The notes below the pieces were generated by a model that did no database searches, was not told the DNA's origin, and saw only the letters and a program-made list of their open reading frames with translations. A DNA stretch of 64,000 bases from Cladocopium goreaui (lineage: Eukaryota > Sar > Dinophyceae > Suessiales > Symbiodiniaceae), in the NCBI GenBank assembly GCA_947184155.2, contig CAMXCT020001558.1, positions 565,778 through 629,777 of the forward strand, read 5' to 3'. Both the position numbers and the translations under genes were made by a program. Below are positions 3,726 to 47,319 of the stretch, in pieces. Each line of letters starts with the position of its first letter. Within the stretch, counting starts at the first letter, position 1.

Positions 3726-3784
3726 ATATATGTAGGGATGATTTAATACTATTCTGACCCCCGATATCCACCATAATCCGCCGA

Positions 3785-3808
3785 CCCCGGCCTTCGCCAA
3801 GGCCGGGG
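3785..3808. repeat. GC hairpin at outer end of left arm
   Basis: CCCCGGCCTT, a four-base loop, then AAGGCCGGGG form a perfect 10 bp stem nine bases inside the palindrome boundary. Confidence 0.85.
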
Positions 3809-3839
3809 CGGCGCCTGGGACCACCGCAGGTGTGGAACT

Positions 3840-4760
3840 TTTCCGCGCGGGCTTTAAGTGTGCGCGGCAGCTTCCACCAAGCCTGGCTGCAGCCTTTGCC
3901 GGTCCAGGGTTGCAGCCTGGCCCTTTGCCTGCACATCCCTCGCGGCAGCTTCCACCAAGCTCCTGGCCGTCAGCGTTCCAGCATTGCAGCCTGCCCTTTG
4001 CCTGCACATAGCCCTCTCTTGTTAGGGCATTCGAGCCTACCGTTTGCCAGGCTTCAAACCCATAAAATGCCTCAAACCCTCCTTTGCCTGCACATAGCCC
4101 TCTCTCGTTAGGGCATTCGAGCCTGCCGTTTGCCAGCCTTCAAACCCTTAAAACCCCTCAAACCCTCCGCGGCAGCTTCCACCAAGGTTGCAGCCTGCCC
4201 TTTGCCTGCACATCCCTCGCGGCAGCTTCTACCAAGCTCCTTGGCGGTCAGCGTTCCAGCATTGCAGCCTGCCCTTTGCCTGCACTTAGCCCTCTCTTGT
4301 TCGGCATTCGAGCCTGCCGTTTGCCAGCTTCTACCAAGCTCCTGGCCGTCAGCGTTCCAGCATTGCAGCCTGCCCTTTGCCTGCACATAGCCCTCTCTTG
4401 TTAAGGCATTCGAGCCTGCCGTTTGCCAGGCTTCAAACGCTTAAAACCCTTAAAACCCTCCTTTGCCTGCACATAGCCTTCTCTCGTTAGGGCATTCGAG
4501 CCTGCCGTTTGCCAGGCTTCAAACGCTTAAAACCCTTAAAACCCTCCTTTGCCTGCACATAGCCCTCTCTCGTTAGGGCATTCGAGCCTGCCGTTTACCG
4601 GCTTCAAACCCATAAAATGCTTCAAACCCTCCTTTGCCTGCACATAGCCCTCTCTCATTAGGGCATTCGAGGCAGCTGCCACCACGCCCTCTGGCCGGCA
4701 GCCTTTGCTGTTCCAGGGTTGCAGCCTGCCCTTTGCCTGCACATCCCTCGCGGCAGCTGC
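3840..4760. repeat. 85-95 bp tandem repeat block (left arm)
   Basis: Units contain CCTTTGCCTGCACATAGCCC, TCTCTCGTTAGGGCATTCGA and GCCTGCCGTTTGCCAGGCTT, with AAACCCTTAAAACCCTCC linkers. A second unit type built on TCAGCGTTCCAGCATTGCAG is interspersed. About ten units are seen. The open frames crossing it are by-products. Confidence 0.85.
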
Positions 4761-6985
4761 CACCAAGCCCTCTGGCCGTCAGCGTTCCAGCATTGCAGCC
4801 TGCCCTTTGCCTGCACTGAGCCCTCTCTTGTTCCCCAACAAGCCCAACACGCGCCACTGCCGCACGCAAAAGCCACCACAAGGCCACAGCAATGGCTCAA
4901 GGGCAGTCCGGCCAGCTCCGCAAGGAAAAGGTACCCCAACAAGCCCAACACGCGCCACTCCCGCACGCAAAAGCCACCACAAGGCCACAGCAATGGCTCA
5001 AGAGCACCTCTGGCCGTCAGCGTTGGCTCAAGAGCACCTCTGGCCGTCAGCGTTCCAGCATTGCAGCCTGCCCTTTGCCTGCACTGAGCCCTCTCTTGTT
5101 CCCCAACAAGCCCAACACGCGCCACTGCCGCACGCAAAAGCCACCACAAGGCCACAGCAATGGCTCAAGGGCACCCCACGGCCGCAGCAATGGCTTCTTA
5201 TACGCGTTCAAGGCTGCCGTTTTGCCAGGCCTCAAACGCTCCAAAACTCTCCAAAACCCTCCAAACCCTCCAAAAGTCCGGCCAGCTCCGCAGGGAAAAG
5301 GTACCCCAACAAGCCCAACACGCGCCACTGCCGCACGCAAAAGCCACCACAAGGCCACAGCAATGGCTCAAGGGCACCCCACGGCCGCAGCAATGGCTTC
5401 TTATACGCGTTCAAGGCTGCCGTTTGCCAGGCCTCAAACGCTCCAAAACCCTCCGAAACCCTCCAAACCCTCCAAACCCTCCAAACCCTCCAAAAGTCCG
5501 GCCAGCTCCGCAGGGAAAAGGTACCCCAACAAGTCCAACACGCGCCACTGCCGCACGCAAAAGTCACCACAAGGCCACAGCAATGGCTCAAGGGCACCCC
5601 ACGGCCGCAGCAATGGCTTCTTATACGCGTTCAAGGCTGCCGTTTGCCAGGCCTCAAACGCTCCAAAACCATCCAAACCCTCCAAAAGTCCGGCCAGCTC
5701 CGCAGGGACCCCAACAAGCCCAACACGCGCCACTCCCGCACGCAAAAGCCACCAAGGCCACAGCAATGGCTCAAGAGCACCCCACGGCCGCAGCAATGGC
5801 TTCTTTTATACGCGTTCAAGGCTGCCGTTTGCCAGGCCTCAAACCCTCCAAAACCCTCCAAACCCTCCAAAAGTCCGGCCAGCTCCGCAGGGAAAAGGTA
5901 CCCCAACAAGCCCAACACGCGCCACTCTCGCACGCAAAAGCCACCACAAGGCCACAGCAATGGCTCAAGAGCACCCCACGGCCGCAGCAATGGCTTCTTT
6001 TATACGCGTTCAAGGCTGCCGTTTGCCAGGCCTCAAACCCTCCAAAACCCTCCAAACCCGCCAAAAGTCCGGCCAGCGTCCGCATGGAACAGGTACCTCC
6101 CACAAGCCCAACACGCGCCACTCTCGACTGCCGCACGCAAAAGCCACCACAAGGCCACAGCAATGGCTCAAGGGCACCCCACGGCCGCAGCAATGGCTTC
6201 TTATACGCGTTCAAGGCTGCCGTTTGCCAGGCCTCAAACGCTCCAAAACCCTCCAAACCCTCCAAAAGTCCGGCCAGCTCCGCAAGGAAAAGGTACCCCA
6301 CCAAGCCCAACACGCGCCACTCCCGCACGCAAAAGCCACCACAAGGCCACAGCAATGGCTCAAGAGCACCTCTGGCCGTCAGCGTTCCAGCATTGCAGCC
6401 TGCCCTTTGCCTGCACTGAGCCCTCTCTTGTTCCCCAACAAGCCCAACACGCGCCACTGCCGCACGCAAAAGCCACCACAAGGCCACAGCAATGGCTCAA
6501 GGGCACCCCACGGCCGCAGCAATGGCTTCTTATACGCGTTCAAGGCTGCCGTTTGCCAGGCCTCAAACGCTCCAAAACCCTCCAAACCCTCCAAAAGTCC
6601 GGCCAGCTCCGCAAGGAAAGGTACCCCAACAAGCCCAACACGCGCCACTCCCGCACGCAAAAGCCACCACAAGGCCACAGCAATGGCTCAAGAGCACCCC
6701 ACGGCCGCAGCAATGGCTTCTTTTATACGCGTTCAAGGCTGCCGTTTGCCAGGCCTCAAACCCTCCAAAACCCTCCAAACTCCTCCAAAAGTCCGGCCAG
6801 CTCCGCAGGGAAAAGGTACCCCAACAAGCCCAACACGCGCCACTCCCGCACGCAAAAGCCACCACAAGGCCACAGCAATGGCTCAAGGGCACCCCACGGC
6901 CGCAGCAATGGCTTCTTATACGCGTTCAAGGCTGCCGTTTGCCAGGCCTCAAACGCTCCAAAACCCTCCAAACCCTCCAAAAGTA
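4761..6985. repeat. 190-220 bp GC-rich satellite, open in all plus frames
   Basis: About ten units share CCCAACACGCGCCACT, AAAGCCACCACAAGGCCACA, CACGGCCGCAGCAATGGCTT, ACGCGTTCAAGGCTGCCGTT and a variable number of CCAAACCCT steps. Unit length is not a multiple of three, yet all three plus frames stay open for long distances (one for 2.5 kb, starting near 4,705), because the unit has almost no stop in any frame. The minus strand is also largely open. The shifting frame between units argues against a translated product. The array ends at AAAAGTAAGCC, which resembles a 5' splice site. Confidence 0.85.
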
Positions 6986-7463
6986 AGCCATTATCATGCC
7001 AAATGGTGTTTTCAAATCTTGTTGGTGTTTTCACATTGGTTTATATTTTAAAAAACCTTGTCCCATATACATCATACTTGTGTATACTACATTCCCACCA
7101 TACTTCATCCTGCCTTGTGATGTCCAACTCTACCTGCCACAAATCATCCCCTCCTGCGCTTACTTTCCCTACCATACTTCATCATATCATCATACTGGGC
7201 CTGGTATTTTGTATGTTTTTGAAGGAACATCAAAGCCAGTATTATTTTGTATCTACAAATCATTATTAACACACATACCGTTTATGGATGCATGTTTTGC
7301 CAAATTCAATCGTAAAATTCAAAGAAAAAACTATGATTGTGGTAGTGGGTCAATGCAACGTGTCTACTCAGGCACCAGGGGGGGAGGGGAGGGGGGCAGG
7401 GCATCCCCCAAAAAACACCAAAAACAAACAGAATGGTAATGCAAGAATCCAGGAGCTTCTCAA
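6986..7463. other. Single-copy link with a diverged 790 bp-type piece
   Basis: It holds CATACTTCATC and CACCTGCCACAAAT-like phrases that are recognisable in the following tandem units, so it looks like a decayed unit. A G-run (GGGGGGAGGGGAGGGGGGCA) lies near 7,380. No gene is supported. Confidence 0.5.
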
Positions 7464-8486
7464 ACCTGTTTCAGTCATGGAAAATTGTCATACTTGACTC
7501 ATTTAATTTTATGTTTTTATCCTGGAATCCAGGAGTTTCCACACTGTAGTCATATTGTATGTAGTTAAGGTATGACTATTTTCCATGGCTGAAACAGGAT
7601 CGAAATATTTTCAAATATGAATTTTGCACCCGTGTGCTTGCTCAGCTGAAGGAGTTTGGACCTCAGCTGTCAGCTGGAAGGATGCAGTGCATTCAAGTTT
7701 TAAGAATCGATTGTGATAAAAATTGCCCTGGTCCATTTGATTAGAGTATTTGTCCTGGAATCCAGTATGTGTGAACATTTGATGATATAGTATAAATGTT
7801 TGGATTACCAAAAAAAGTATAATTAAATTTGGAAGGTTTGAGGCAGTTGGCACGATTCCCCAAAAAGCAAGGTTAAGGTCAAGTTTTGTCTCAACATCTT
7901 TGAGTTCTGGTATGTAATCATAGCTTGCCCCTGTGCTTGCCCATCCCACAGGAGTCTGATCCTCAGCTGTCCAGGGGTGGCTAAGCTAGGAAAAAGACAT
8001 TTGAATTATTTATTTTAAAAAAAATGAATCCATTCCAAGTCCATTCCATTTCAAGATCAAGTGTGCTGGATTCTGGAACTCCTTTTTTTTTTCAGGTTGC
8101 AAACTGTCAGATACCTTGTGATGCCCACCTCCACCTGCCACAAATAGGCCCTTCTGTCTTCCTACCCTCACTTTCCCCCATCATACTTCATCATACCTTT
8201 TGATGTCCAAACTTTGATGATATAAAGATTGACATGACTCATTTAATTTTCAAGTGTTGGTCCTGAAATCCACGAGCTTTATGAACCTGTTTCAGTCATG
8301 GAAAATTATCATACTTGACTCATTTAATTTTATGTTTTTATCCTGGAATCCAGGAGCTTCCACACTGTAGTCATCTTGTATGTAGTTAAGCTATGGCAAG
8401 TTTCCATGGCTGAAACAGGTTCGATATATTTTCAAACATGATATTGGCATCATTTTTTTGAAAATATATATATTTTTCTCTTCCAG

Positions 8487-8638
8487 CAGCCTGAACCTGT
8501 GCTTGCTCAGCTGAAGGAGTTTGGACCTCAGCCGAAAGCTGGAAGGATGCAGTGCATTCAAATTTGTTCAAGAATCCAGTATGCGTTGACATATGATGAT
8601 ATAGTATATATGTTTGGATTACCACAAAAACCTCAGAG
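8487..8638 (+). CDS. Repeated exon-like island, copy in unit 2
   Basis: The island is bounded by the acceptor TTTTTCTCTTCCAG and the donor AGAG before GTATGC. Its 50 codons are open (start QPEPVLAQLKEFGPQPKAG, end YMFGLPQKPQ) and end in phase 2, so a skipped or included copy would shift frame. It recurs unchanged in the next unit and with one V to A change in the right arm. No domain is recognised. Against coding: parts of the island resemble non-coding phrases elsewhere in the same unit, which suggests it may have grown from internal repeats. The direction, toward the palindrome centre, is the same as that of the gene at 18.4-20 kb, so it could be an upstream exon of that gene. Confidence 0.35.
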
Positions 8639-9271
8639 GTATGCTTAAACTTGGAAGGTTTGAGGCTCTTGGCACGGTTCCACAAAAAACATGGTCAAGT
8701 TTTATGTTCTTGTATGTAATCATAGCTTGCCCCTGTGCTTGCCCATTCTGCAGGAGTCTGATCCTCAGCTGTCCGGGGTGTGGCTAAGCTAGGAAAAAGA
8801 CATTTGAAATATATATATTTTTTAAAAACTGAATCTATTCCAAGTCCATTCCATTTCAAGATCAAGTGTGCTGGATTCTGGAACTCCTTTTTTTTTCAGG
8901 TTGCAAACTGTCAGATACCTTGTGCACAAATAGGCCCTTCTGTCTTCCTACCCTCACTTTCCCCCCATCATACTTCATCATACCTTTTGATGTCCAAACT
9001 TTGATGATATAAAGATTGACATAACTCATTTAATTTTCAAGTGTTGGTCCTGAAATGCACGAGCTTTATGAACCTGTTTCAGTCATGGAAAATTATCATA
9101 CTTGACTCATTTAATTTTATGTTTTTATCCTGGAATCCAGGAGCTTCCACACTGTAGTCATCTTGTATGTAGTTAAGGTATGACAAGTTTCCATGGCTGA
9201 AACAGGTTCGATATATTTTCGAACATGATATTGGCATCATTTTTTTGAAAATATATTTTTTTCTCTTCCAG

Positions 9272-9423
9272 CAGCCTGAACCTGTGCTTGCTCAGCTGAA
9301 GGAGTTTGGACCTCAGCCGAAAGCTGGAAGGATGCAGTGCATTCAAATTTGTTCAAGAATCCAGTATGCGTTGACATATGATGATATAGTATATATGTTT
9401 GGATTACCACAAAAACCTCAGAG
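9272..9423 (+). CDS. Repeated exon-like island, copy in unit 3
   Basis: It has the same length (152), the same acceptor and donor and the same reading as the copy about 785 bases upstream. A truncated fourth start of the island follows at 10,054 and breaks off near 10,104, where single-copy sequence takes over. Confidence 0.35.
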
Positions 9424-10112
9424 GTATGCTTAAACTTGGAAGGTTTGAGGCTCTTGGCACGGTTCCACAAAAAACATGGTCAAGTTTTATGTTCTTGTAT
9501 GTAATCATAGCTTGCCCCTGTGCTTGCCCATTCTGCAGGAGTCTGATCCTCAGCTGTCCGGGGTGTGGCTAAGCTAGGAAAAAGACATTTGAAATATATT
9601 TATTTTTTAAAAAATGAATCCATTCCAAGCCCATTCCATTTCAAGATCAAGTGTGCTGGATTCTGGAACTCCTTTTTTTTCAGGTTGCAAACTGTCAGGT
9701 GCCTTGTGCGCGAATAGGCCCTTCTGTCTTCCTACCCTCACACTTTCCCCCCATCATACTTCATCATACCTTTTGATGTCCAAACTTTGATGATATAAAT
9801 GACATAACTCATTTAATTTTCAAGTGTTGGTCCTGAAATCGACGAGCTTTCTGAACCTGTTTCAGTCATGGAAAATTATCATACTTGACTCATTTAATTT
9901 TATGTTTTTATCCTGGAATCCAGGAGCTTCCACACTGTAGTCATCTTGTATGTAGTTAAGGTATGACAAGTTTCCATGCCTGAAACAGGTTCGTATATTT
10001 TCAAACATGATATTGGCATCATTTTTTTGAAAATATATATTTTTCTCTTCCAGCAGCCTGAACCTGTGCTTGCTCAGCTGAAAGAGTTTGGACCTCAGCC
10101 GACAATTTGAAG

Positions 10113-10422
10113 AGCTGACTATGAAGCATCAAAAAACAAGCACAGCACAGAGATTTAGATTAATGTCATGTTATGCAAAGTGAACAAATACCAGATAGGA
10201 CAACCTTGCAGCTTATAGCAGGTTCCACCTCCAGAATCTGCCCAGGGTAATCCAAACAGACCTCATGGCAGTCCCAACCTCAAAGCAATGTCAATTGAGC
10301 AAACCTAAAGTGTAACTATGGTTCTCAGATTTTGTTTGCATCAGTAATTGATACAGCAAATTTGTAAGAAATGATGCAGAAAGTCTTTCATTTTACTGGT
10401 GTCTTTACAGCTGTGATGGCAC
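10113..10422. other. Single-copy segment of the arm
   Basis: There is no repeat and no convincing exon. The sequence ends at TGTGATGGCACCACATA, where the TACA tract begins. It is present three times overall (here, 34,150-34,455 and 40,700-41,005). Confidence 0.4.
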
Positions 10423-10659
10423 CACATACATACATACATACATACATACATTACATTACATTTACATCACATACATCACATCACGTCGCATTACATTACA
10501 TTACATAACAAAACATAACATTACATACATACATACATACATACATCCATGCATACATACGTACGTACGTACGTACATACATACATACATACATTTTCAT
10601 GCATACATACATACATACATACATTACATACATTACATACATTACATGCATTACATACA

Positions 10660-10690
<31 letters not shown>

Positions 10691-10850
10691 CATACTTACA
10701 TTACATTACATTACATTACATTACAGTACAGTACATTACATTACATTACATTACATACATACATACATACATATGAGCACAAACATATATACATACATAT
10801 GTATACATACATACGTGCACATGCGTACATATCCATAACTATAGTCCACC
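10423..10850. repeat. (TACA)n / (TTACA)n microsatellite
   Basis: Long CATA and ATTAC runs with a few TACG and TGCA steps. Its length differs strongly between the three copies of this segment (about 430 here, 540 and 490 in the right arm), so it mutates quickly. Confidence 0.95.
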
Positions 10851-10854
10851 ATAT

Positions 10855-11845
10855 ATGCGTACTTACCAGGACTTATGTCCTTGGATTTTATGTATACTTA
10901 CCAGGACTTATGTCCTTGGAACTTATGTATTTGTACCAGGACGTATGTCCTTGGAATTTACATATACTTACCAGGACTTATGTCCTTGGAATTTATGTAT
11001 GTATATACCAGGACGTATGTCCTTGGAATGTACGTATACTTACCAGGACTTATGTCCTTGGAATTTATGTATATATATACCAGGACTTCTGTCCTTGGAA
11101 TTTATGTAGATATACCAGGACTTCTGTCCTTGGAATTTATGTATACTTACCAGGACTTATGTCCTTGGAATTTATGTATGTATATACCAGGACGTATGTC
11201 CTTGGAATGTATGCATACTTACCAGGACTTATGTCCTTGGAATTTATGTATACTTACCAGGACTTCTGTCCTTGGAATTTATGTATATGTACCAGGACGT
11301 ATGTCCTTGGAATGTATGTATACTTACCAGGACTTATGTCCTTGGAATTTATGTATACTTACCAGGACTTATGTCCTTGGAATTTATGTATATATACCAG
11401 GACTTATGTCCTTGGAATTTATGTATGTATATACCAGGACGTATGTCCTTGGAATGTATGTATACTTACCAGGACTTATGTCCTGGGAATTTATGTATAT
11501 ATACCAGGACTTCTGTCCTTGGAATTTTTGTATACTTACCAGGACTTATGTCCTTGGAATTTATGTATGTATATACCATGACGTATGTCCTTGGAATGTA
11601 TGTATACTTGCCAGGACTTATGTCCTGGGAATTTATGTATATATACCAGGACTTCTGTCCTTGGAATTTTTGTATACTTACCAGGACTTATGTCCTTGGA
11701 ATTTATGTATACTTACCAGGACTTATGTCCTTGGAATTTATGTATACTTACCGTATGTCCTTGGAATTTATGTATACTTACCAGGACTTCTGTCCTTGGA
11801 ATTTATGTATACTTACCAGGACTTCTGTCCTTGGAATTTATGTGT
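10855..11845. repeat. 35 bp minisatellite with hairpin and splice-site-like motif
   Basis: About 29 units of the type ACCAGGACTTATGTCCTTGG followed by AATTTATGTATACTT. Each unit has a near-perfect inverted repeat (CCAGGAC / GTCCTTGG). On the minus strand each unit reads CCTG before GTAAGTAT or GTATATAT, which are good 5' splice-site sequences. Three plus frames stay open for 200-350 codons through lack of stops, and the peptides are just the repeat. Confidence 0.95.
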
Positions 11846-12819
11846 ATATATATATAGACATATATATTTATATATAGACATTTACGTATATAATACATAT
11901 ATATATATATACACTTATACATGAATTAATATTAAGATTCCTATACATGGCAGCACGTACACATGTACACACTAAGGACCACTAAGGACCACTAAGGAAC
12001 CACTCAGGAATCTGCACGCAACAAAAAACAGTAACTAGTCTGCCGAACAGGCAGTGTCTCGAACAGAGACATTTTTTTCCCAAGCTGATTCGCAACATTG
12101 TCACAATCTCAGTACAGGACCTCAGCTACTACCTCACTAGCCTCAGTACATGTGTGTTTTTTGTTACATTTGGGTCTTGTTGTCATGATAGTTTTATGTT
12201 CTTCCTGTCAATCATTGTCATTCATGGTTACCAGGACAACTATGTTTTGTTGTTGTTGTTGTCATTACTGCAGTAGTAAAAGATGAAGAAGAAGTAGTAG
12301 TAGTAGTAGTCGTGGTGGTGCTGGTGGTGGTAGTTTTATGGTTGAAAATTTGAAAGAATGTGGCATTTCTTGAGGAAGTTGTGGCATGCCTCTATGCAAC
12401 ATTCTTCTATAGAGGGAGCAACATTCCTTTGAGAAAGTGTAAAGCAAGACCCTGAGATGTGCATAGCATTCCTTTAGAACAAGTGCGTTCTGTCTTCCAT
12501 ATATTTTAATGAACATATGTAATTCCTTCCACAGAGGCAGTAGTCCTTTTAGAGAAGGGTAGCATTTCCTTAGATAAAATATGCATATACATTAGTGTTT
12601 TTCAGAAAAGCGGCATGCCTTTCAGACAGGACTTGACGGTTTCATGAAAATATTATTCATTTGGAAAATACAATATAATTTTCAAATAACATAATTCACT
12701 GTATGATATTATTAACTATACATATATATATACAGTTACACACAATATTCCTTTCAAAAGTATGCAGCATCTCTTTGAGAAGTAGCCTTCCAGACACACA
12801 GCAGTCCTAGTGAAAGACT
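11846..12819. other. Single-copy segment with short trinucleotide runs
   Basis: It starts with a TATA-rich 80 bases, then three ACTAAGGACC steps, a TGTTG run near 12,246 and a GTAGTAGTAG run near 12,290. Several CCTTT/AGAAG phrases recur irregularly. No exon is supported. Confidence 0.4.
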
Positions 12820-12871
12820 ATGGCTGAGTATGGAAGGAGAGACCGGCAGCAATGGAGAAAACATTTTCAAG
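12820..12871 (+). CDS. Candidate first exon (left arm)
   Basis: An ATG opens the short, basic peptide MAEYGRRDRQQWRKHFQ and is followed by the donor CAAG before GTAAAAC. The exon ends one base into a codon. An identical ATG and donor are kept in both right-arm copies. Downstream, toward the centre and on the same strand, lie the acidic tracts and the exon islands at 16.5 and 18.4-20 kb, so this may be the 5' end of a long gene with satellite-filled introns. No frame continuity can be shown. Confidence 0.3.
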
Positions 12872-13408
12872 GTAAAACCACCCCTATAGACAGGCGGTAC
12901 AATAAGCAAAACCACCAAAAAAACACAAACACCGAAAAAAACAAAAAAACAAAAAACAAAAAAAAACAAAGATCCAGCAACTATGAGCCCCCCAACCTTT
13001 CTCTGGAATCTTTGGTTTTTTTTGTTTTTGTTTTTTTTCTGTTTTCAGTTATGGAGTCTAATTTTGTGTAGGGAATTTTGTTCTTGGGGTGTGCCTGTGG
13101 GAGATGCAATGTTGAAGTGACAAGTGCAGCCATATTTTTTTCTGGATGGGTAGATTCATGAGCAAACTGACAGGATCCAGGTCATTTTTATCAATGTTTA
13201 AAGTGTCAAGTCCGGTCAAAACGAAACATCTATTTAAAATATATTTAAATCCTATCAGAATGAAGAACATCCTAAAATTGGTGTGTTAATTTTTGTTATG
13301 GTTTGTTCATAAGGTCCATATGAGGTCCAAGTATGTTCCATTTCCATCCAGGCATTTCCATCCAGGTAAGGGTTGTTTTACATGTAGGCCAAAAACGGAT
13401 GGGCAATA

Positions 13409-13660
13409 ATGGGTGATGAAAATGTTAATGATGACGGTTATGAAAGTGATGACAACGATTACAACGATAACAGTGATGACAGTGACGACAACGATGACAG
13501 TGATGACAACGATGACAGTGATGACAACGATGACAGTGATGACAACGATGACAGTGATGACAACGATGACAATGATAACGATGACAGTGATGACAACGAT
13601 GACAGTGATGACAACGATGACAGTGATGACAACGATGACAGTGATGACAACGATGTTTTG
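13409..13660. repeat. 18 bp GATGACAGTGATGACAAC tract, shorter block
   Basis: About 13 units. The plus frame reads an Asp/Ser/Asn-rich peptide opened by MGDENVNDDGYESDDND and followed by about 40 ordinary residues (VLKLCACSVKHK onward) to a stop at 13,801. The minus frames are also open, so coding is possible but not shown. The unit is a multiple of three, so copy-number change keeps frame. Confidence 0.9.
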
Positions 13661-13926
13661 AAACTCTGCGCGTGCAGCGTAAAACATAAATCACCGCAGG
13701 TTCAGATCAAGGAACTTGAAATGAAAAAAATTCCGGAGATGATAAAATCAGATCACACTCACAGAAAATATGTGGTTCAAAATAGAAGTTCCCCAAAATA
13801 AACAGAAACCATAGCGTCATGAAATAAATTAAATGAGTTCGATCTCCTTTCAGAAGGATTCTCACAGTGCAAAACCAAATGTCAAATCACCAAGAGGTAT
13901 GCACAAAAAAAAACACAGCAGAAAAT

Positions 13927-13959
13927 AATACAGACGATAAGAATCTTATCGTCTGTATT
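13927..13959. repeat. Perfect 33 nt palindrome between the two acidic tracts
   Basis: AATACAGACGATAAGA, one central base, then its exact complement. It is perfectly kept in the two right-arm copies. It could form a strong RNA hairpin or a DNA cruciform. The role is unknown. Confidence 0.9.
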
Positions 13960-14159
13960 TGTTTTTCATATCAAGGAAGGTTCAAAAATTAAAAACACGA
14001 TTTCGCTGTGTTCACAGTTGGGTCACACAGTTACCATCTGGCATATCTTCCAGACAATTAAGTTGAGTGGACGCTTGCGCGTGGTCGCTCTTAAATAATC
14101 ACGAGACGCAGCACGCGTGCGTTACGCAGGCTTCACCAGAGTCCTAAAAACAACGGGAT

Positions 14160-14945
14160 CTGCAAGCAGAACCCTTACGACAATGATAACAGTGATGACA
14201 GTGATGACAACAATGACAGTGATGACAACGATGACAGTGATGACAACGAGTGATGACAACGATGACAGTGATGACAACGATGACAGTGATGACAACGATG
14301 ACAGTGATGACAACGATGACAGTGATGACAACGATGACAGTGATGACAACGATGACAGTGATGACAACGATGACAGTGATGACAACGATGGCAATGATAA
14401 CAGTGATGACAACGATGACAGTGATGACAACGGTGACAATGATAACAGTGATGACAGTGATGACAACGATGACAGTGATACCAAGGATGACAACCATGAC
14501 AATGATGTCAACGATGACAATGATGACACTGATGACAGTGATGCCAGTGATGGCAGTGATGACAACGATGACAATGATGTCAACGATGACAATGATGCCA
14601 GTGATGGCAGTGACGACAGTTATGTCAATGATGACAACGATGACAAGGATGACAACGATGACAATGATGGCAGTGATGACAGTGATGACAGTGATGACAA
14701 TGATGACAGTGATGCCAGTGATGACAACAATGACAAGGTTGACAATGATGACAGCGATGACAATGATAAGAGTGATGCCAGTGATGGCAACGATGACAAG
14801 GATGACAGTGATGACAGCGATGACAGGGATGACAATGCTAAAAGTGATGCCAGTAATGACAATGATGAGAGTGATGCCACTGATGACAGCAATGCCACTG
14901 ATGACAGCGATGCCACTGATGACAGTGATGCCACTGATGACTGGG
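14160..14945. repeat. GAT/GAC/AGT trinucleotide tract, longer block
   Basis: It begins as the regular 18 bp unit and becomes degenerate (GATGCC, GATGGC, GATAAG) toward the inner end. The copy here has a two-base disturbance near 14,249 (ACGAGTGATG) that breaks the otherwise continuous phase, which the right-arm copies lack. All six frames are nearly stop-free. The T-rich TTTTTGATTTTT sequence after it (to about 15,160) shows no gene. Confidence 0.9.
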
Positions 14946-16440: not shown

Positions 16441-16457
16441 CTCTCTGACTCTCCCAG

Positions 16458-36534: not shown

Positions 36535-36752
36535 TAAGGGTTCTGCTTGCAGATCCCGCTGTTTTTAGGACTCTGGTGAAGCCTGCGTAACGCACGCGTG
36601 CTGCGTCTCGTGATTATTTAAGAGCGACCACGCGCAAGCGTCCACTCAACTTAATTGTCTGGAAGATATGCCAGATGGTAACTGTGTGACCCAACTGTGA
36701 ACACAGCGAAATCGTGTTTTTAATTTTTGAACCTTCCTTGATATGAAAAACA

Positions 36753-36785
36753 AATACAGACGATAAGATTCTTATCGTCTGTATT
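36753..36785. repeat. 33 nt palindrome, unit B copy
   Basis: Perfectly kept third copy. Confidence 0.88.
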
Positions 36786-37051
36786 ATTTTCTGCTGTGTT
36801 TTTTTTGTGCATACCTCTTGGTGATTTGACATTTGGTTTTGCACTGTGAGAATCCTTCTGAAAGGAGATCGAACTCATTTAATTTATTTCATGACGCTAT
36901 GATTTCTGTTTATTTTGGGGAAGTTCTATTTTGAACCACATATTTTCTGTGAGTGTGATCTGATTTTATCATCTCCGGAAAATTTTTCATTTCAAGTTCC
37001 TTGATCTGAACCTGCGGTGATTTATGTTTTACGCTGCACGCGCAGAGTTTT

Positions 37052-37305
37052 AAAACATCGTTGTCATCACTGTCATCGTTGTCATCACTGTCATCGTTGT
37101 CATCACTGTCGTCGTTGTCATCACTGTCATCACTGTTATCATTGTCATCGGTGTCATCACTGTCATCGTTGTCATCACTGTCATCGTTGTCATCACTGTC
37201 ATCGTTGTCATCACTGTCATCGTTGTCGTCACTGTCATCACTGTTATCGTTGTAATCGTTGTCATCACTTTCATAACCGTCATCATTAACATTTTCATCA
37301 CCCAT
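37052..37305. repeat. 18 bp tract, shorter block, unit B
   Basis: It contains a GTCGTCGTTG variant and a TCGGTGTC variant. Its flanks match the other two copies. Confidence 0.88.
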
Positions 37306-37839
37306 TATTGCCCATCCGTTTTTGGCCTACATGTAAAACAACCCTTACCTGGATGGAAATGCCTGGATGGAAATGGAACATACTTGGACCTCATATGGAC
37401 CTTATGAACAAACCATAACAAAAATTAACACACCAATTTTAGGATGTTCTTCATTCTGATAGGATTTAAATATATTTTAAATAGATGTTTCGTTTTGACC
37501 GGACTTGACACTTTAAACATTGTGATAAAAATGACCTGGATCCTGTCAGTTTGCTCATGAATCTACCCATCCAGAAAAAAAATATGGCTGCACTTGTCAC
37601 TTCAACATTGCATCTCCCACAGGCACACCCCAAGAACAAAATTCCCTACACAAAATTAGACTCCATAACTGAAAACAGAAAAAAAAACAAAAAAAACCAA
37701 AGATTCCAGAGAAAGGTTGGGGGGCTCATAGTTGCTGGATCTTTGTTTTTTTTTTTTGTTGTTTTTTTGGTTTTTTCGGTGTTTGTGTTTTTTTGGTGGT
37801 TTTGCTTATTGTACCGCCTGTCTATAGGGGTGGTTTTAC

Positions 37840-37891
37840 CTTGAAAATGTTTTCTCCATTGCTGCCGGTCTCTCCTTCCATACTCAGCCAT
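37840..37891 (-). CDS. Candidate first exon, unit B copy
   Basis: Identical to the other two copies, while the poly-T/poly-A intron start behind it differs in length. Confidence 0.28.
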
Positions 37892-38865
37892 AGTCTTTCA
37901 CTAGGACTGCTGTGTGTCTGGAAGGCTACTTCTCAAAGAGATGCTGCATACTTTTGAAAGGAATATTGTGTGTAACTGTATATATATATGTATAGTTAAT
38001 AATATCATACAGTGAATTATGTTATTTGAAAATTATATTGTATTTTCCAAATGAATAATATTTTCATGAAACCGTCAAGTCCTGTCTGAAAGGCATGCCG
38101 CTTTTCTGAAAAACACTAATGTATATGCATATTTTATCTAAGGAAATGCTACCCTTCTCTAAAAGGACTACTGCCTCTGTGGAAGGAATTACATATGTTC
38201 ATTAAAATATATGGAAGACAGAACGCACTTGTTCTAAAGGAATGCTATGCACATCTCAGGGTCTTGCTTTACACTTTCTCAAAGGAATGTTGCTCCCTGT
38301 ATAGAAGAATGTTGCATAGAGGCATGCCACAACTTCCTCAAGAAATGCCACATTCTTTCAAATTTTCAACCATAAAACTACCACCACCAGCACCACCACG
38401 ACTACTACTACTACTACTTCTTCTTCATCTTTTACTACTGCAGTAATGACAACAACAACAACAAAACATAGTTGTCCTGGTAACCATGAATGACAATGAT
38501 TGACAGGAAGAACATAAAACTATCATGACAACAAGACACAAATGTAACAAAAAACACACATGTACTGAGGCTAGTGAGGTAGTAGCTGAGGTCCTGTACT
38601 GAGATTGTGACAATGTTGCGAATCAGCTTGGGAAAAAAAATGTCTCTGTTCGAGACACTGCCTGTTCGGCAGACTAGTTACTGTTTTTTGTTGCGTGCAG
38701 ATTCCTGAGTGGCTCCTTAGTGGTCCTTAGTGGTCCTTAGTGTGTACATGTGTACGTGCTGCCATGTATAGGAATCTTAATATTAATTCATGTATAAGTG
38801 TATATATATATGTATTATATACGTAAATGTCTATATATAAATATATATGTCTATATATATATATA

Positions 38866-40206
38866 CACATAAATTCCAAGGACAGAAGTCCTGGTAAGTA
38901 TACATAAATTCCAAGGACAGAAGTCCTGGTAAGTATACATAAATTCCAAGGACATACGTCCTGGTAAGTATACATAAATTCCAAGGACATAAGCCCTGGT
39001 AAGTATACATAAATTCCAAGGACATAAGTCCTGGTAAGTATACAAAAATTCCAAGGACATACGTCCTGGTAAGTATACATAAATTCCAAGGACATAAGCC
39101 CTGGTAAGTATACATAAATTCCAAGGACATAAGTCCTGGTAAGTATACAAAAATTCCAAGGACAGAAGTCCTGGTATATATACATAAATTCCCAGGACAT
39201 AAGTCCTGGCAAGTATACATACATTCCAAGGACATACGTCATGGTATATACATACATAAATTCCAAGGACATAAGTCCTGGTATATATACATAAATTCCA
39301 AGGACATAAGTCCTGGTAAGTATACATAAATTCCAAGGACATAAGTCCTGGTAAGTATACATACATTCCAAGGACATACGTCCTGGTATATATACATAAA
39401 TTCCAAGGACAGAAGTCCTGGTAAGTATACATAAATTCCAAGGACATAAGTCCTGTTAAGTATGCATACATTCCAAGGACATACGTCCTGGTATATACAT
39501 ACATAAAATCCAAGGACATAAGCCCTGGTAAGTATACATAAATTCCAAGGACATACGTCCTGGTATATCTACATAAATTCCAAGGACAGAAGTCCTGGTA
39601 TATATGTACATAAATTCCAAGGACATAAGTCCTGGTAAGTATACAAAAATTCCAAGGACATACGTCCTGGTATATATACATAAATTCCAAGGACATAAGT
39701 CCTGGTAAGTATACATACATTCCAAGGACATAAGTCCTGGTAAGTATACATACATTCCAAGGACATACGTCCTGGTATATATACATAAATTCCAAGGACA
39801 GAAGTCCTGGTAAGTATACATAAATTCCAAGGACATAAGTCCTGTTAAGTATGCATACATTCCAAGGACATACGTCCTGGTATATACATACATAAAATCC
39901 AAGGACATAAGCCCTGGTAAGTATACATAAATTCCAAGGACATACGTCCTGGTATATCTACATAAATTCCAAGGACAGAAGTCCTGGTATATATATACAT
40001 AAATTCCAAGGACATAAGTCCTGGTAAGTATACGTACATTCCAAGGACATACGTCCTGGTAAGTATACATAAATTCCAAGGACATAAGCCCTGGTAAGTA
40101 TACATAAATTCCAAGGACATACGTCCTGGTACATATACATAAGTTCCAAGGACATAAGTCCTGGTAAGTATACATAAAATCCAAGGACATAAGTCCTGGT
40201 AAGTAC
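38866..40206. repeat. 35 bp minisatellite, unit B copy
   Basis: About 38 units, the longest of the three arrays. An internal block of about 400 bases near 39,430-39,900 is repeated (the phrase GTCCTGTTAAGTATGCATAC occurs twice), showing expansion by multi-unit duplication. Confidence 0.93.
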
Positions 40207-40211
40207 GCATA

Positions 40212-40351
40212 TATGGTGGACTATAGTTATGGATATGTACGCATGTGCACGTATGTATGTATACATATGTGTGTATATATGTTTGTGCTCATATGTATGT
40301 ATGTATGTATGTGTGTATGTATGTATGTATGTATGTATGTATGTATGTATG

Positions 40352-40382
<31 letters not shown>

Positions 40383-40700
40383 TGTATGTATGTATGTAAT
40401 GTAATGTAATGTAATGTAATGTAATGTAATGTAATGTACTGTAATGTAATGTAATGTATGTATGTATGTATGTATGTAATGTATGTAATGTATGTAATGT
40501 ATGTAATGTATGTAATGTATGTAATGTATGTATGTATGTAATGTATGTATGTACGTACGTACGTACGTATGTATGTATGCATGGATGTATGTATGTATGT
40601 AATGTTATGTTTTGTTATGTAATGTAATGTAATGCGACGTGATGTGATGTGATGTGATGTAATGTAATGTAATGTATGTATGTATGTATGTATGTATGTG
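40212..40700. repeat. (TATG)n / (TAATG)n microsatellite, unit B copy
   Basis: Mixed TATG and TAATG runs, closer to the left-arm version than unit A is. Confidence 0.92.
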
Positions 40701-41701
40701 GTGCCATCACAGCTGTAAAGACACCAGCAAAATGAAAGACTTTCTGCATCATTTCTTACAAATTTGCTGTATCAATTACTGATGCAAACAAAATCTGAGA
40801 ACCATAGTTACACTTTAGGTTTGCTCAATTGACATTGCTTTGAGGTTGGGACTGCCATGAGGTCTGTTTGGATTACCCTGGGCAGATTCTGGAGGTGGAA
40901 CCTGCTATAAGCTGCAAGGTTGTCCTATCTGGTATTTGTTCACTTTGCATAACATGACATTAATCTAAATCTCTGTGCTGTGCTTGTTTTTTGATGCATC
41001 ATAATCAGCTCTTCAAATTGTCGGCTGAGGTCCAAACTCTTTCAGCTGAGCAAGCACAGGTTCAGGCTGCTGGAAGAGAAAAATATATATTTTCAAAAAA
41101 ATGATGCCAATATCATGTTTGAAAATATATCGAACCTGTTTCAGGCATGGAAACTTGTCATACCTTAACTACATACAAGATGACTACAGTGTGGAAGCTC
41201 CTGGATTCCAGGATAAAAACATAAAATTAAATGAGTCAAGTATGATAATTTTCCATGACTGAAACAGGTTCAGAAAGCTCGTCGATTTCAGGACCAACAC
41301 TTGAAAATTAAATGAGTTATGTCAATCTTTATATCATCAAAGTTTGGACATCAAAAGGTATGATGAAGTATGATGGGGGGAAAGTGTGAGGGTAGGAAGA
41401 CAGAAGGGCCTATTCGCGCACAAGGCACCTGACAGTTTGCAACCTGAAAAAAAAAGGAGTTCCAGAATCCAGCACACTTGATCTTGAAATGGAATGGACT
41501 TGGAATGGATTCATTTTTTAAAAAATAAATAATTCAAATGTCTTTTTCCTAGCTTAGCCACCCCTGGACAGCTGAGGATCAGACTCCTGTGGGATGGGCA
41601 AGCACAGGGGCAAGCTATGATTACATACAAGAACATAAAACTTGACCATGTTTTTTGTGGAACCGTGCCAAGAGCCTCAAACCTTCCAAGTTTAAGCATA
41701 C

Positions 41702-41853
41702 CTCTGAGGTTTTTGTGGTAATCCAAACATATATGCTATATCATCATATGTCAACGCATACTGGATTCTTGAACAAATTTGAATGCACTGCATCCTTCCA
41801 GCTTTCGGCTGAGGTCCAAACTCCTTCAGCTGAGCAAGCACAGGTTCAGGCTG
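41702..41853 (-). CDS. Repeated exon-like island, right arm copy 1
   Basis: Same length and splice motifs. It carries the V to A change shared with the unit A copy, which fits unit A having been copied from unit B or the reverse. Confidence 0.3.
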
Positions 41854-42484
41854 CTGGAAGAGAAAAATATATATTTTCAAAAAAATGATGCCAATATCAT
41901 GTTCGAAAATATATCGAACCTGTTTCAGCCATGGAAACTTGTCATACCTTAACTACATACAAGATGACTACAGTGTGGAAGCTCCTGGATTCCAGGATAA
42001 AAACATAAAATTAAATGAGTCAAGTATGATAATTGTCCATGACTGAAACAGGTTCATAAAGCTCGTGGATTTCAGGACCAACACTTGAAAATTAAATGAG
42101 TCATGTCAATCTTTATATCATCAAAGTTTGGACATCAAAAGGTATGATGAAGTATGATGGGGGGAAAGTGAGGGTAGGAAGACAGAAGGGCCTATTTGTG
42201 CACAAGGTATCTGACAGTTTGCAACCTGAAAAAAAAAGGAGTTCCAGAATCCAGCACACTTGATCTTGAAATGGAATGGACTTGGAATAGATTCAGTTTT
42301 TAAAAAATATATATTTCAAATGTCTTTTTCCTAGCTTAGCCACACCCCGGACAGCTGAGGATCAGACTCCTGCAGAATGGGCAAGCACAGGGGCAAGCTA
42401 TGATTACATACAAGAACATAAAACTTGACCATGTTTTTTGTGGAACCGTGCCAAGAGCCTCAAACCTTCCAAGTTTAAGCATAC

Positions 42485-42636
42485 CTCTGAGGTTTTTGTG
42501 GTAATCCAAACATATATACTATATCATCATATGTCAACGCATACTGGATTCTTGAACAAATTTGAATGCACTGCATCCTTCCAGCTTTCGGCTGAGGTCC
42601 AAACTCCTTCAGCTGAGCAAGCACAGGTTCAGGCTG
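42485..42636 (-). CDS. Repeated exon-like island, right arm copy 2
   Basis: Reads like the left-arm islands (YDDIVYMFGL). Both splice motifs are intact. Confidence 0.3.
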
Positions 42637-43660
42637 CTGGAAGAGAAAAATATATATTTTCAAAAAAATGATGCCAATATCATGTTTGAAAATATATCGA
42701 ACCTGTTTCAGCCATGGAAACTTGCCATAGCTTAACTACATACAAGATGACTACAGTGTGGAAGCTCCTGGATTCCAGGATAAAAACATAAAATTAAATG
42801 AGTCAAGTATGATAATTTTCCATGACTGAAACAGGTTCATAAAGCTCGTGGATTTCAGGACCAACACTTGAAAATTAAATGAGTCATGTCAATCTTTATA
42901 TCATCAAAGTTTGGACATCAAAAGGTATGATGAAGTATGATGGGGGAAAGTGAGGGTAGGAAGACAGAAGGGCCTATTTGTGGCAGGTGGAGGTGGGCAT
43001 CACAAGGTATCTGACAGTTTGCAACCTGAAAAAAAAAGGAGTTCCAGAATCCAGCACACTTGATCTTGAAATGGAATGGACTTGGAATGGATACATTTTT
43101 TTTAAAATAAATAATTCAAATGTCTTTTTCCTAGCTTAGCCACCCCTGGACAGCTGAGGATCAGACTCCTGTGGGATGGGCAAGCACAGGGGCAAGCTAT
43201 GATTACATACCAGAACTCAAAGATGTTGAGACAAAACTTGACCTTAACCTTGCTTTTTGGGGAACCGTGCCAAGAGCCTCAAACCTTCCAAATTTAATCA
43301 TACTTTTTTTTGGTAATCCAAACATTTATACTATATCATCAAATGTTCACACATACTGGATTCCAGGACAAATACTCTAATCAAATGGACCAGGGCAATT
43401 TTTATCACAATCGATTCTTAAAACTTGAATGCACTGCATCCTTCCAGCTGACAGCTGAGGTCCAAACTCCTTCAGCTGAGCAAGCACACGGGTGCAAAAT
43501 TCATATTTGAAAATATTTCGATCCTGTTTCAGCCATGGAAATAGTCATACCTTAACTACATACAATATGACTACAGTGTGGAAACTCCTGGATTCCAGGA
43601 TAAAAACATAAAATTAAATGAGTCAAGTATGACAATTTTCCATGACTGAAACAGGTTTGA

Positions 43661-44136
43661 GAAGCTCCTGGATTCTTGCATTACCATTCTGTTTGTTTTT
43701 GGCGTTTTTTTGGGGATGCCCTGCCCCCCTCCCCTCCCCCCCTGGTGCCTGAGTAGACACGTTGCATTGACCCACTACCACAATCATAGTTTTTTCTTTG
43801 AATTTTACGATTGAATTTGGCAAAACATGCATCCATAAACGGTATGTGTGTTAATAATGATTTGTAGATACAAAATAATACTGGCTTTGATGTTCCTTCA
43901 AAAACATACAAAATACCAGGCCCAGTATGATGATATGATGAAGTATGGTAGGGAAAGTAAGCGCAGGAGGGGATGATTTGTGGCAGGTAGAGTTGGACAT
44001 CACAAGGCAGGATGAAGTATGGTGGGAATGTAGTATACACAAGTATGATGTATATGGGACAAGGTTTTTTAAAATATAAACCAATGTGAAAACACCAACA
44101 AGATTTGAAAACACCATTTGGCATGATAATGGCTTA
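43661..44136. other. Single-copy link (right arm)
   Basis: Mirror of the segment at 6,986-7,463. It has a C-run near 43,720-43,743 and no gene. Confidence 0.45.
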
Positions 44137-46330
44137 CTTTTGGAGGGTTTGGAGGGTTTTGGAGCGTTTGAGGCCTGGCAAACGGCAGCCTTGAACGCGT
44201 ATAAGAAGCCATTGCTGCGGCCGTGGGGTGCCCTTGAGCCATTGCTGTGGCCTTGTGGTGGCTTTTGCGTGCGGGAGTGGCGCGTGTTGGGCTTGTTGGG
44301 GTACCTTTTCCCTGCGGAACTGGCCGGACTTTTGGAGGGTTTGGAGGGTTTTGGAGGGTATGGAGAGTTTGAGGCCTGGCAAACGGCAGCCTTGAACGCG
44401 TATAAAAGAAGCCATTGCTGCGGCCGTGGGGTGCTCTTGAGCCATTGCTGTGGCCTTGTGGTGGCTTTTGCGTGCGAGAGTGGCGCGCGTTGGGCTTGTT
44501 GGGGTACCTGTTCCCTGCGGAGCTGGCCGGACTTTTGGAGGGTTTGGAGGGTTTGGAAGGTTTTGGAGGGTTTGAGGCCTGGCAAACGGCAGCCTTGAAC
44601 GCGTATAAGAAGCCATTGCTGCGGCCGTGGGGTGCCCTTGAGCCATTGCTGTGGCATTGTGGTGGCTTTTGCGTGCGGCAGTGGCGCGTGTTGGGCTTGT
44701 TGGGGAACAAGAGAGGGCTCAGTGCAGGCAAAGGGCAGGCTGCAATGCTGGAACGCTGACGGCCAGAGGTGCTCTTGAGCCATTGCTGTGGCCTTGTGGT
44801 GGCTTTTGCGTGCGGGAGTGGCGCGTGTTGGGCTTGGTGGGGTACCTTTTCCTTGCGGAGCTGGCCGGACTTTTGGAGGGTTTGGAGGGTTTTGGAGCGT
44901 TTGAGGCCTGGCAAACGGCAGCCTTGAACGCGTATAAGAAGCCATTGCTGCGGCCGTGGGGTGCTCTTGAGCCATTGCTGTGGCCTTGTGGTGGCTTTGG
45001 CGTGCGGCCGTGGCGCGTGTTGGGCTTGTTGGGGTACCTTTGCCCTGCGGACCTGGCCGGACTTTTGGAGGGTTTGGAGGGTTTTGGAGGGTTTTGGAGG
45101 GTTTTGGAGCGTTTGAGGCCTGGCAAACGGCAGCCTTGAACGCGTATAAGAAGCCATTGCTGCGGCCGTGGGGTGCTCTTGAGCCATTGCTGTGGCCTTG
45201 TGGTGGCTTTTGCGTGCGGGAGTGGCGCGTGTTGGGCTTGTTGGGGTACCTTTTCCCTGCGGAGCTGGCCGGACTTTTGGCGGGTTTGGAGGGTCTTGGA
45301 GGGTTTGAGGCCTGGCAAACGGCAGCCTTGAACGCGTATAAAAGAAGCCATTGCTGCGGCCGTGGGGTGCTCTTGAGCCATTGCTGTGGCCTTGTGGTGG
45401 CTTTTGCGTGCGGCAGTCGAGAGTGGCGCGTGTTGGGCTTGTTGGGGTACCTGTTCCCTGCGGAGCTGGCCGGACTTTTGGAGGGTTTGGAGGGTTTTGG
45501 AGGGTTTGAGGCCTGGCAAACGGCAGCCTTGAACGCGTATAAGAAGCCATTGCTGCGGCCTTGGGGTGCCCTTGAGCCATTGCTGTGGCCTTGTGGTGGC
45601 TTTTGCGTGCGGGAGTGGCGCGTGTTGGGCTTGTTGGGGTACCTTTTCCCTGCGGAGCTGGCCGGACTTTTGGAGGGTTTGGAGGGTTTTGGAAGGTTTG
45701 AGGCCTGGCAAACGGCAGCCTTGAAGCCATTGCTGCGGCCGTGGGGTGCTCTTGAGCCATTGTTGTGGCCTTGTGGTGGCTTTTGCGTGCGAGAGTGGCG
45801 CGTGTTGGGCTTGTTGGGGTACCTGTTCCCTGCGGAGCTGGCCGGACTTTTGGAGGGTTTGGAGGGTTTTGGAGCGTTTGAGGCCTGGCAAACGGCAGCC
45901 TTGAACGCGTATAAGAAGCCATTGGTGCGGCCGTGGGGTGCCCTTGAGCCATTGCTGTGGCCTTGTGGTGGCTTTTGCGTGCGGCAGTGGCGCGTGTTGG
46001 GCTTGTTGGGGAACAAGAGAGGGCTCAGTGCAGGCAAAGGGCAGGCTGCAATGCTGGAACGCTGACGGCCAGAGGTGCTCTTGAGCCATTGCTGTGGCCT
46101 TGTGGTGGCTTTTGCGTGCGGGAGTGGCGCGTGTTTTGGGCTTGTTGGGTGAACTTTTTCCTTGCGGAGCTGGCCGCTGGCCCTTGAGCCATTGCTGTGG
46201 CCTTGTGGTGGCTTTTGCGTGCGGCAGTGGCGCGTGTTGGGCTTGTTGGGGAACAAGAGAGGGCTCAGTGCAGGCAAAGGGCAGGCTGCAATGCTGGAAC
46301 GCTGACGGCCAGAGGGCTTGGTGGCAGCTG
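44137..46330. repeat. 190-220 bp GC-rich satellite (right arm)
   Basis: Same unit as the left arm with a different order of unit variants, so unequal exchange has acted since the arms separated. The long open frames are on the minus strand here, and the plus strand is also open for up to 361 codons. Confidence 0.85.
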
Positions 46331-47250
46331 CCGCGAGGTGGCAGCTGCCGCGAGGGATGTGCAGGCAAAGGGCAGGCTGCAACCCTGGAACAGCAAAGGC
46401 TGCCGGCCAGAGGGCGTGGTGGCAGCTGCCTCGAATGCCCTAACGAGAGAGGGCTATGTGCAGGCAAAGGAGGGTTTGAAGCATTTTATGGGTTTGAAGC
46501 CGGTAAACGGCAGGCTCGAATGCCCTAACGAGAGAGGGCTATGTGCAGGCAAAGGAGGGGGTTTTAAGCGTTTGAAGCCTGGCAAACGGCAGGCTCGAAT
46601 GCCCTAACGAGAGAAGGCTATGTGCAGGCAAAGGAGGGTTTTAAGGGTTTTAAGCGTTTGAAGCCTGGCAAACGGCAGGCTCGAATGCCTTAACAAGAGA
46701 GGGCTATGTGCAGGCAAAGGGCAGGCTGCAATGCTGGAACGCTGACGGCCAGGAGCTTGGTAGAAGCTGGCAAACGGCAGGCTCGAATGCCGAACAAGAG
46801 AGGGCTAAGTGCAGGCAAAGGGCAGGCTGCAATGCTGGAACGCTGACCGCCAAGGAGCTTGGTAGAAGCTGCCGCGAGGGATGTGCAGGCAAAGGGCAGG
46901 CTGCAACCTTGGTGGAAGCTGCCGCGGAGGGTTTGAGGGGTTTTAGGGGTTTGAAGGCTGGCAAACGGCAGGCTCGAATGCCCTAACGAGAGAGGGCTAT
47001 GTGCAGGCAAAGGAGGGTTTGAGGCATTTTATGGGTTTGAAGCCTGGCAAACGGTAGGCTCGAATGCCCTAACAAGAGAGGGCTATGTGCAGGCAAAGGG
47101 CAGGCTGCAATGCTGGAACGCTGACGGCCAGGAGCTTGGTGGAAGCTGCCGCGAGGGATGTGCAGGCAAAGGGCCAGGCTGCAACCCTGGAGCAGCAAAG
47201 GCTGACGGCCAGGCTTGGTGGAAGCTGCCGCGCACACTTAAAGCCCGCGC
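46331..47250. repeat. 85-95 bp tandem repeat block (right arm)
   Basis: Mirror of the left outer block with similar unit order. Confidence 0.85.
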
Positions 47251-47286
47251 GGAAAAGTTCCACACCTGCGGTGGTCCCAGGCGCCG

Positions 47287-47310
47287 CCCCGGCCTTGGCG
47301 AAGGCCGGGG
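47287..47310. repeat. GC hairpin at outer end of right arm
   Basis: Same 10 bp stem as in the left arm, nine bases from the boundary at 47,319. Confidence 0.85.
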
Positions 47311-47319
47311 TCGGCGGAT

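Follow-up and report, generated by a model that had tools for sequence, protein, structure and literature searches.

Identification of a probable giant palindromic mobile element

The DNA investigated here is a stretch of 64,000 nucleotides from the dinoflagellate Cladocopium goreaui (contig C1558, positions 565778-629777), which is referred to as the window; coordinates within it are preceded by w. The genome has 34 matches to DVNP, a family of dinoflagellate nuclear proteins, all of them above the curated cut-off, against 0 of 14 control genomes, in agreement with a dinoflagellate; peptides of the flanks are reminiscent of Symbiodiniaceae. The window contains a large interrupted palindrome. 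This is a copy of a mobile element of very large size, with inverted ends of about 14 kb, which occurs at about five or more places in the genome (1,165,616,438 bases in 6,202 contigs were searched) and is not specific to this locus. It is very probable that w6985-44135 represents a giant transposon with terminal inverted repeats (TIRs) in a non-autonomous state, with part of its interior deleted.

The whole element (w6985-44135) consists of two inverted arms and a central spacer of 2.5 kb, and the tip AAGCCATTATCATGCC starts both ends. The left arm (w6985-20973, forward strand) begins with the tip AAGCCATTATCATGCCAAATGGTGTTTTC, and the right arm (w23487-44135, reverse strand) is terminated by the inverted tip at w44135. 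The right arm is lengthened by a tandem duplication, the first copy of which is located at w29109-35370 (reverse strand) and the second of which starts at w35371. In the self-comparison of the window, inverted alignments were obtained between w9205-20973 and w35371-23487 (96.9% identity) and between w3776-11846 and w47319-39214 (95.0% identity). A reading made from the letters of the window alone (the sequence-only reading) had described near-identical reverse-complement arms, a spacer of about 2.5 kb, arm-specific satellite lengths and an arm-specific gain of 6.6 kb, and these descriptions proved accurate. Among the 5,759 bases aligned in the single-copy parts of the arms, 17 are substituted (0.30%, without counting gaps), the spacer is located at w20974-23486, the tandem arrays at w10424-16301 are unequal in length between the left and the right arm, and the extra length of the right arm, which is present in the assembly, corresponds to the tandem duplication mentioned above. 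The same reading had placed the boundaries of the unit at w3776 and w47319; these were ruled out as element boundaries, since the other copies have their terminus in common with the window at w6985 and w44135.

A genome search in which the outermost 1,016 bases of the arm served as query revealed 11 full tips in nine contigs (all 17 candidates were scored). Two each were found in C1558 and C376, and a single one in each of the other seven (C4737, C3935, C2924, C1190, C4333, C2870 and C1816). In addition, C566 was found to contain part of an arm, and a relative of the tip, 49 bases long, was detected at C1868:650815. The spacer is present in six contigs, in C3935 only partially. In C1190, C4737, C376 (both sides) and C3935, the match to the window stops at most two bases from w6984/6985 or w44135/44136, and the tip AAGCCATTATCATGCC was found at the ends of C1190, C4737, C376, C3935, C2924, C4333 and C2870; in C1816, AAGAC replaces AAGCC. 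Outside the tips the DNA is mostly unrelated when up to 6 kb per flank are compared (1 kb for C2924, C2870 and C1816; 1.6 kb for C4333). Just two groups have more than 250 bases in common, namely the left flank of C376 and the flank of C2924 (1,000 identical bases outside the tip), and both window ends and C3935, which share one repeat.

Target-site duplications

A target-site duplication was scored for two flanks if their last four bases, read toward the tip, are reverse complements of each other. Among nine flanks, four disjoint 4-bp pairs were detected, all between different contigs: AAGT (window and C3935), ATGT (C376 left/C2924 and C2870), GTCC (C376 right and C4737) and TCTT (C4333 and C1816). 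This count leaves out the flank of C2924, which is identical to the left flank of C376, and the right flank of the window, which carries the repeat and the four bases of the left one. Duplication lengths of 3 and 5 gave one and zero pairs among the nine flanks, 899 shifted positions gave a mean of 0.18 pairs with a maximum of 2, and random 4-mers from the same flanks reached four pairs in 11 of 200,000 draws. Furthermore, an empty AAGT target could be reconstructed: the left flank of the window and the flank of C3935, minus one AAGT, yield an uninterrupted satellite (300 bp, 98.7%, one gap), whereas retention of the duplicate AAGT costs five gap bases in the same alignment. Two of the features by which TIR DNA transposons are recognised, inverted repeats with fixed ends and a target duplication of constant length (4 bp, between contigs), were found. 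The fixed tips and the paired 4-bp duplications therefore point to a transposon-like element with TIRs of about 14 kb. The palindrome had also been suggested to be possibly a young amplification unit. This comes close, since the unit is young and multi-copy, but it is also a moving one, its ends being sharp and its target sites duplicated over 4 bp.

A larger form of the element in contig C2924

Contig C2924 contains a larger form of the element, the left tip of which (484496) is the same as that of the shorter copies, which are called derivatives in the following. In the derivatives, each arm is composed of an outer and an inner module, which meet at w16634/16635 (feature w16615-16655, forward strand; mirrored in the right arm near w27813/27814). 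In C2924, the outer module stops at w16634, and about 41 kb of extra DNA separates it from the inner module. Behind the inner module (to w20970), C2924 has 17.7 kb of new sequence, then the spacer in inverted orientation (558244-560636) and another 18.0 kb, after which the inverted inner arm module begins (578610). The inverted repeat of C2924 reaches inward to 542297/576840 (99.2%). The spacer of the window is a remnant of this core, as w21009-23407 corresponds to C2924:560636-558244 (99.4%).

The joints at which the derivatives depart from C2924 are conserved. GCAGC is present once at the joint of the two modules in the derivatives, and in C2924 it flanks the extra arm DNA on both sides. The joint w16634/16635 was found in nine of nine derivative arms (two each in the window, C1190, C4737 and C376, one in C3935). 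The left spacer deletion joint (w20962-21012, forward strand) contains a 27-base stretch, GGACCACTTTTGGAGGCTCAGATGTCC, in the orientation opposite to that at the inner end of the C2924 arm, and the right joint (w23400-23450, forward strand) holds the same stretch. Both spacer joints are identical across the derivatives reaching them (left, four contigs; right, five contigs). The junction of the right-arm tandem duplication is common to the window and C1190 only, among the fetched copies searched, which were those other than C4333, C2870 and C1816. The sequence comparison identifies the window copy as a C2924-type element that has been shortened by deletions; the extra arm DNA is missing from it, and its core is reduced to 2.4 kb.

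The extra arm DNA of C2924 was sampled in ten pieces of 500 bases (six left, four right), nine of which had no match in the window, while one matched an array at about 70%. The DNA adjoining the inner module is identical over 291 bp in both C2924 arms. Apart from itself, a 500-base piece taken at 590001 matches the genome at exactly one position, 528642-529141, which lies on the opposite strand and on the same mirror axis. In view of this identity and of the mirrored sample, the assumption that the extra DNA differs between the arms was dropped. A 135-base match of 91% between two C2924 samples lies about 0.6 kb off the axis and was read as a dispersed repeat. Because mirrored extra DNA was seen in both arms, arms of about 58 kb around a core of 34.5 kb are predicted for the C2924 form, which would then comprise about 150 kb in total.

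In the C2924 core, 140 of 166 open reading frames (ORFs) were scanned against Pfam. Two families were matched above their cut-offs, DUF7869 with 54.2 bits (cut-off 26) and DNA_methylase with 25.0 bits (cut-off 22), and Phage_integrase was matched weakly, with 16.3 bits (cut-off 27.1). In PHROGs, core ORFs matched an integrase (E 2.6e-9) and a DNA methyltransferase (E 2.9e-5). Further Pfam matches of the core at E 0.02, FAM70 (1.9e-4) and CHD1-like_C (0.0069), are silent on transposition, and the 61 ORFs scanned from the left arm and the spacer, 60 of them out of a list of 72, gave no Pfam match better than E 0.016. The DUF7869 ORF is regarded only as a candidate for the DDE transposase that an autonomous TIR transposon should encode. 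Its comparison with PDB gave four chains of TAL effectors (best E 3e-5), with no stretch passing alone, and these were read as chance matches; the integrase ORF had no PDB match at E 1. The DNA-methylase-like ORFs are located at C2924:554435-556081; in those inspected by eye, the usual catalytic PCQ motif could not be made out.

A DDE-type transposase, provided by the larger element or a relative, would cut at the tips and insert the element with a 4-bp stagger; a 4-bp duplication is a better fit to a DDE enzyme than to a tyrosine recombinase. The derivative may have lost the coding core, perhaps by interrupted gap repair, which would be in line with the short shared sequence and the filler at the joints, and it would have kept its tips and then spread. 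A change in one arm would later have been copied to the other, which would keep the element palindromic. We tentatively suggest, while regarding it as somewhat doubtful, that the larger form is a giant eukaryotic transposon of a new kind, with a size of about 150 kb, most of it palindrome (arms of about 58 kb), and with 4-bp duplications and an unrecognised transposase. Its arms would stay mirror-identical through the copying of deletions or insertions from arm to arm, perhaps in an excised or hairpin intermediate, and stripped, self-mirrored derivatives like the window copy would spread from it.

Divergence and mirroring of the arms

Arms of the same copy differ in 63 of 23,214 bases (0.27%; six comparisons, three of them in the window owing to the duplicated stretch), and arms of different copies in 476 of 199,232 bases (0.24%; 53 comparisons). 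Eight single-copy segments were used for these values; gaps were not counted, pairs with fewer than 1,500 aligned bases were dropped, matches covering less than 93% of a segment were left out, and the spacer was counted apart. The spacers of four derivatives show 0-2 differences per approximately 1,390 bases among each other and 4-6 in comparison to C2924. It had been proposed that gene conversion might keep the arms alike. With 0.27% within and 0.24% between copies, local gene conversion is unsupported as the source of arm identity at this locus. Because the two values are similar, the likeness of the window arms is best read as the presumable result of recent common descent of the family and not of repair at the site.

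At the level of the family the situation is different. Judged from the sequences, changes must have been copied from arm to arm at some time, unless each palindrome formed anew, because the same joint is present in nine derivative arms and the extra DNA in both arms of C2924. Alternatively, the change may have proceeded in the reverse direction, with the extra DNA of C2924 being an insertion with duplication of GCAGC; the same change would have occurred in both arms either way.

Outer flanks and alternative explanations

The DNA on the outer left of the element (w3776-6984, forward strand) is a fragment of a separate, dispersed, satellite-bearing repeat, which starts with ATCCGCCGACCCCGG and ends in the 4-bp target AAGT; the element sits inside it. 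On the outer right (w44136-47319, reverse strand) an inverted copy of this repeat follows, which is probably an assembly join and not the true right flank. The two share 3,099 matches, with 81 mismatches and 189 gap columns, including about 75 unrelated outside bases. For w3776-4800, at least 244 matches were obtained from the best 40 of 1,178 candidates; the query started at w3776, so this search does not show where the repeat starts. The outer repeat was considered as a part of the element and rejected, as it is widespread and occurs, for example, in C2894, a contig absent from the tip matches. It was likewise observed at C2894:5101, in C2668, C2163, C811 and others, and at the mirrored ends of the window it starts with the hairpin-like ATCCGCCGACCCCGGCCTTCGCCAAGGCCGGGG.

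Beyond this repeat, a second match of nearly full length to the left outer DNA (w2600-3775) was not found among the best 40 of 2,211 candidates, just a dispersed stretch of about 105 bases. The right outer DNA (w47330-48800) is also present in C2894 with 100% identity (best 40 of 1,549 candidates), ten bases before a copy of the outer repeat. C2894 (82,991 bases) is absent from the matches of the genome-wide tip search, and a 300-base sample at the approximate position of the element is uninterrupted satellite. Because the target duplication is missing in the window copy and C2894 carries the right flank with uninterrupted satellite, the assembler probably attached the right outer flank to the element; alternatively, there may be a genuine second insertion that is polymorphic in the culture, or the left flank may have been copied. 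The sequence-only reading had argued against a simple fold-back read artefact. This is probably correct for the core of the palindrome, but the joining of the outer flanks is doubtful, as a matching duplication is missing and C2894, a contig without a tip match, contains the right outer flank as well.

Several observations weigh against the interpretation as a transposon. The window and C376 are the only contigs which cross a derivative from tip to tip, and in both the two sides lack a matching duplication (C376: ATGT left, GTCC right). The flank of C1190 (ATCT) has no partner. The empty AAGT target is another unit of the repeat family and not the locus itself, and it fits the left and right flanks of the window equally. 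C376 and C2924 have an identical left flank of 1,000 bp, yet different elements behind it, which means either that one locus was assembled twice or that two versions exist in the culture. The right end of the C2924 form lies outside the contig, and its mirrored stretch was seen in parts only. Moreover, the larger form may be unique in the genome, because a 1.9-kb stretch of its core recurs elsewhere only as two partial matches, both in C236 (263 bp, 76%; 140 bp, 86%). Finally, none of the 61 arm and spacer ORFs and the 140 core ORFs scanned could be assigned to a known transposase superfamily.

Some of these observations would follow from an assembly error, and we consider it rather likely that one occurred: the assembler would have made the outer mirrored flanks (w3776-6984 and w44136-47319) and the crossing from the left to the right flank of the element in the window, in a repeat which is about 99.7% identical between copies. 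The absence of a matching duplication across the element in the window copy and C376 is consistent with this, as are the occurrence of the right outer flank in C2894, with the repeat adjoining, the satellite uninterrupted in a 300-base sample and no tip match, and the single full tip in seven of nine tip-bearing contigs. The left outer flank, by contrast, has no second match of nearly full length. However, the core of arm, spacer and arm has the same joints in C1190, C4737, C376 and partly C3935, substitutions and array lengths differ between the arms, unlike in a simple fold-back, and a polymorphic insertion in the culture would also yield filled and empty versions. The error would concern the flanks only and is compatible with the transposon explanation.

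Two further explanations address the nature of the element. It might go back to a linear replicon or a virus-like element that carries long inverted terminal repeats and became integrated, the window copy being a defective form of it. The very long inverted repeats, the integrase-like ORF and the same rearrangement in both arms agree with this, and mirrored terminal deletions are a habit of linear replicons and virus genomes with such repeats; a viral hallmark gene is absent from the 140 core ORFs scanned against Pfam, with about 41 kb per arm of the larger form only sampled, and we regard this origin as unlikely. A host palindrome could also have spread as a segmental amplification, by breakage and rejoining and without a transposase. 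The failure to identify a transposase in the ORFs scanned would be explained in this way, and the element contains an internal tandem duplication and mirrored deletions, both of which are typical of unstable palindromes. Base-exact ends at 11 tips and 4-bp target duplications are not expected from such a process, which makes it very improbable. A non-autonomous derivative of a giant TIR transposon is the preferred explanation.

Comparison with known giant elements

Starships of fungi are giant cargo-bearing elements, which are moved by a tyrosine recombinase; this captain (DUF3435) is located at one end of the element. To our knowledge, Starships are not palindromes with inverted arms of 14 kb. 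The integrase-like ORF in the C2924 core is reminiscent of them and is a candidate only as the mover of the element. The weak Phage_integrase match lies in the core and not at a tip, and no DUF3435 was found among the Pfam matches, with the arms of the larger form mostly unscanned. Polintons/Mavericks and large DNA viruses possess a protein-primed polymerase B and capsid genes; no such genes were found in the core ORFs scanned, about 41 kb per arm of the larger form being sampled only.

According to the available part of the respective study, the KDZ, EnSpm and Sola-1 families of Ectocarpus are giant cut-and-paste DNA transposons of more than 10 kb, some of more than 30 kb (PMC12477816). They resemble the present element as large algal DNA transposons with extra genes and nested insertions, as far as this part describes them (PMC12477816). 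Here, however, the inverted ends alone comprise about 14 kb (about 58 kb is predicted for the larger form), and none of the scanned ORFs could be placed in a named transposase family. Teratorn, with 41-182 kb (PMC6431247), is likewise a giant element with transposon ends, but the accessible portions of its descriptions characterise it as a piggyBac-like element which targets TTAA, has TIRs of 18 bp and contains herpesvirus genes (PMC10175614, PMC6431247). The targets AAGT, ATGT, GTCC and TCTT of the present element differ from the TTAA of piggyBac elements, and no herpesvirus gene was found among the Pfam matches of the core ORFs scanned. Galileo/Foldback elements are much shorter than the element described here. 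In the excerpted account of Galileo from Drosophila (PMC4168063), long inverted ends and copies recombining with each other are shared features, while its P-superfamily transposase is not among the matches obtained here.

No description of a dinoflagellate element of this kind was found in the accessible parts of the literature searched, with subscription journals and preprints outside its scope. Perfect palindromes of great length are generally regarded as unstable, yet a palindromic unit of about 30-37 kb is present here at about five or more places in one genome, with arms of different copies about 0.24% apart. If the larger form is confirmed, it would provide a direct system for studying the survival of palindromes in dinoflagellate chromosomes and the mobilisation of non-coding derivatives of giant elements. 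Its inverted ends would then be longer than any terminal inverted repeat in the literature compared, as far as the available sections go (PMC6431247, PMC12477816, PMC10175614). The results also suggest checking contigs that cross such copies against target duplications.

Further features of the window and its relatives

Beside the features described above, the left arm contains sub-terminal tandem duplications of about 0.8 kb (w7748-10102, forward strand; mirrored at w41021-43373). They are followed by the stretch with tandem arrays (w10424-16301, forward strand), which includes ACAT, 35-bp, 9/18-bp (GATGACAAC) and TTG-rich 58-bp arrays. Within this stretch, w12338-13172 is a dispersed repeat, which was found with about 86-94% identity in more than 20 other contigs (best 40 of 448 candidates). 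The distant relative of the tip in C1868 (649815-651814, tip at base 1001) is 86% identical over its first 49 bases, and short stretches resembling the 35-bp and TGTAG arrays of the arm were recognised by eye behind it; it possibly belongs to an older related family. An Rfam scan of the window at the gathering threshold gave zero families. In the right flank of the window, two older inverted pairs were observed, w53350-54096 with w60690-61444 (77%) and w52356-53219 with w62198-63004 (71%).

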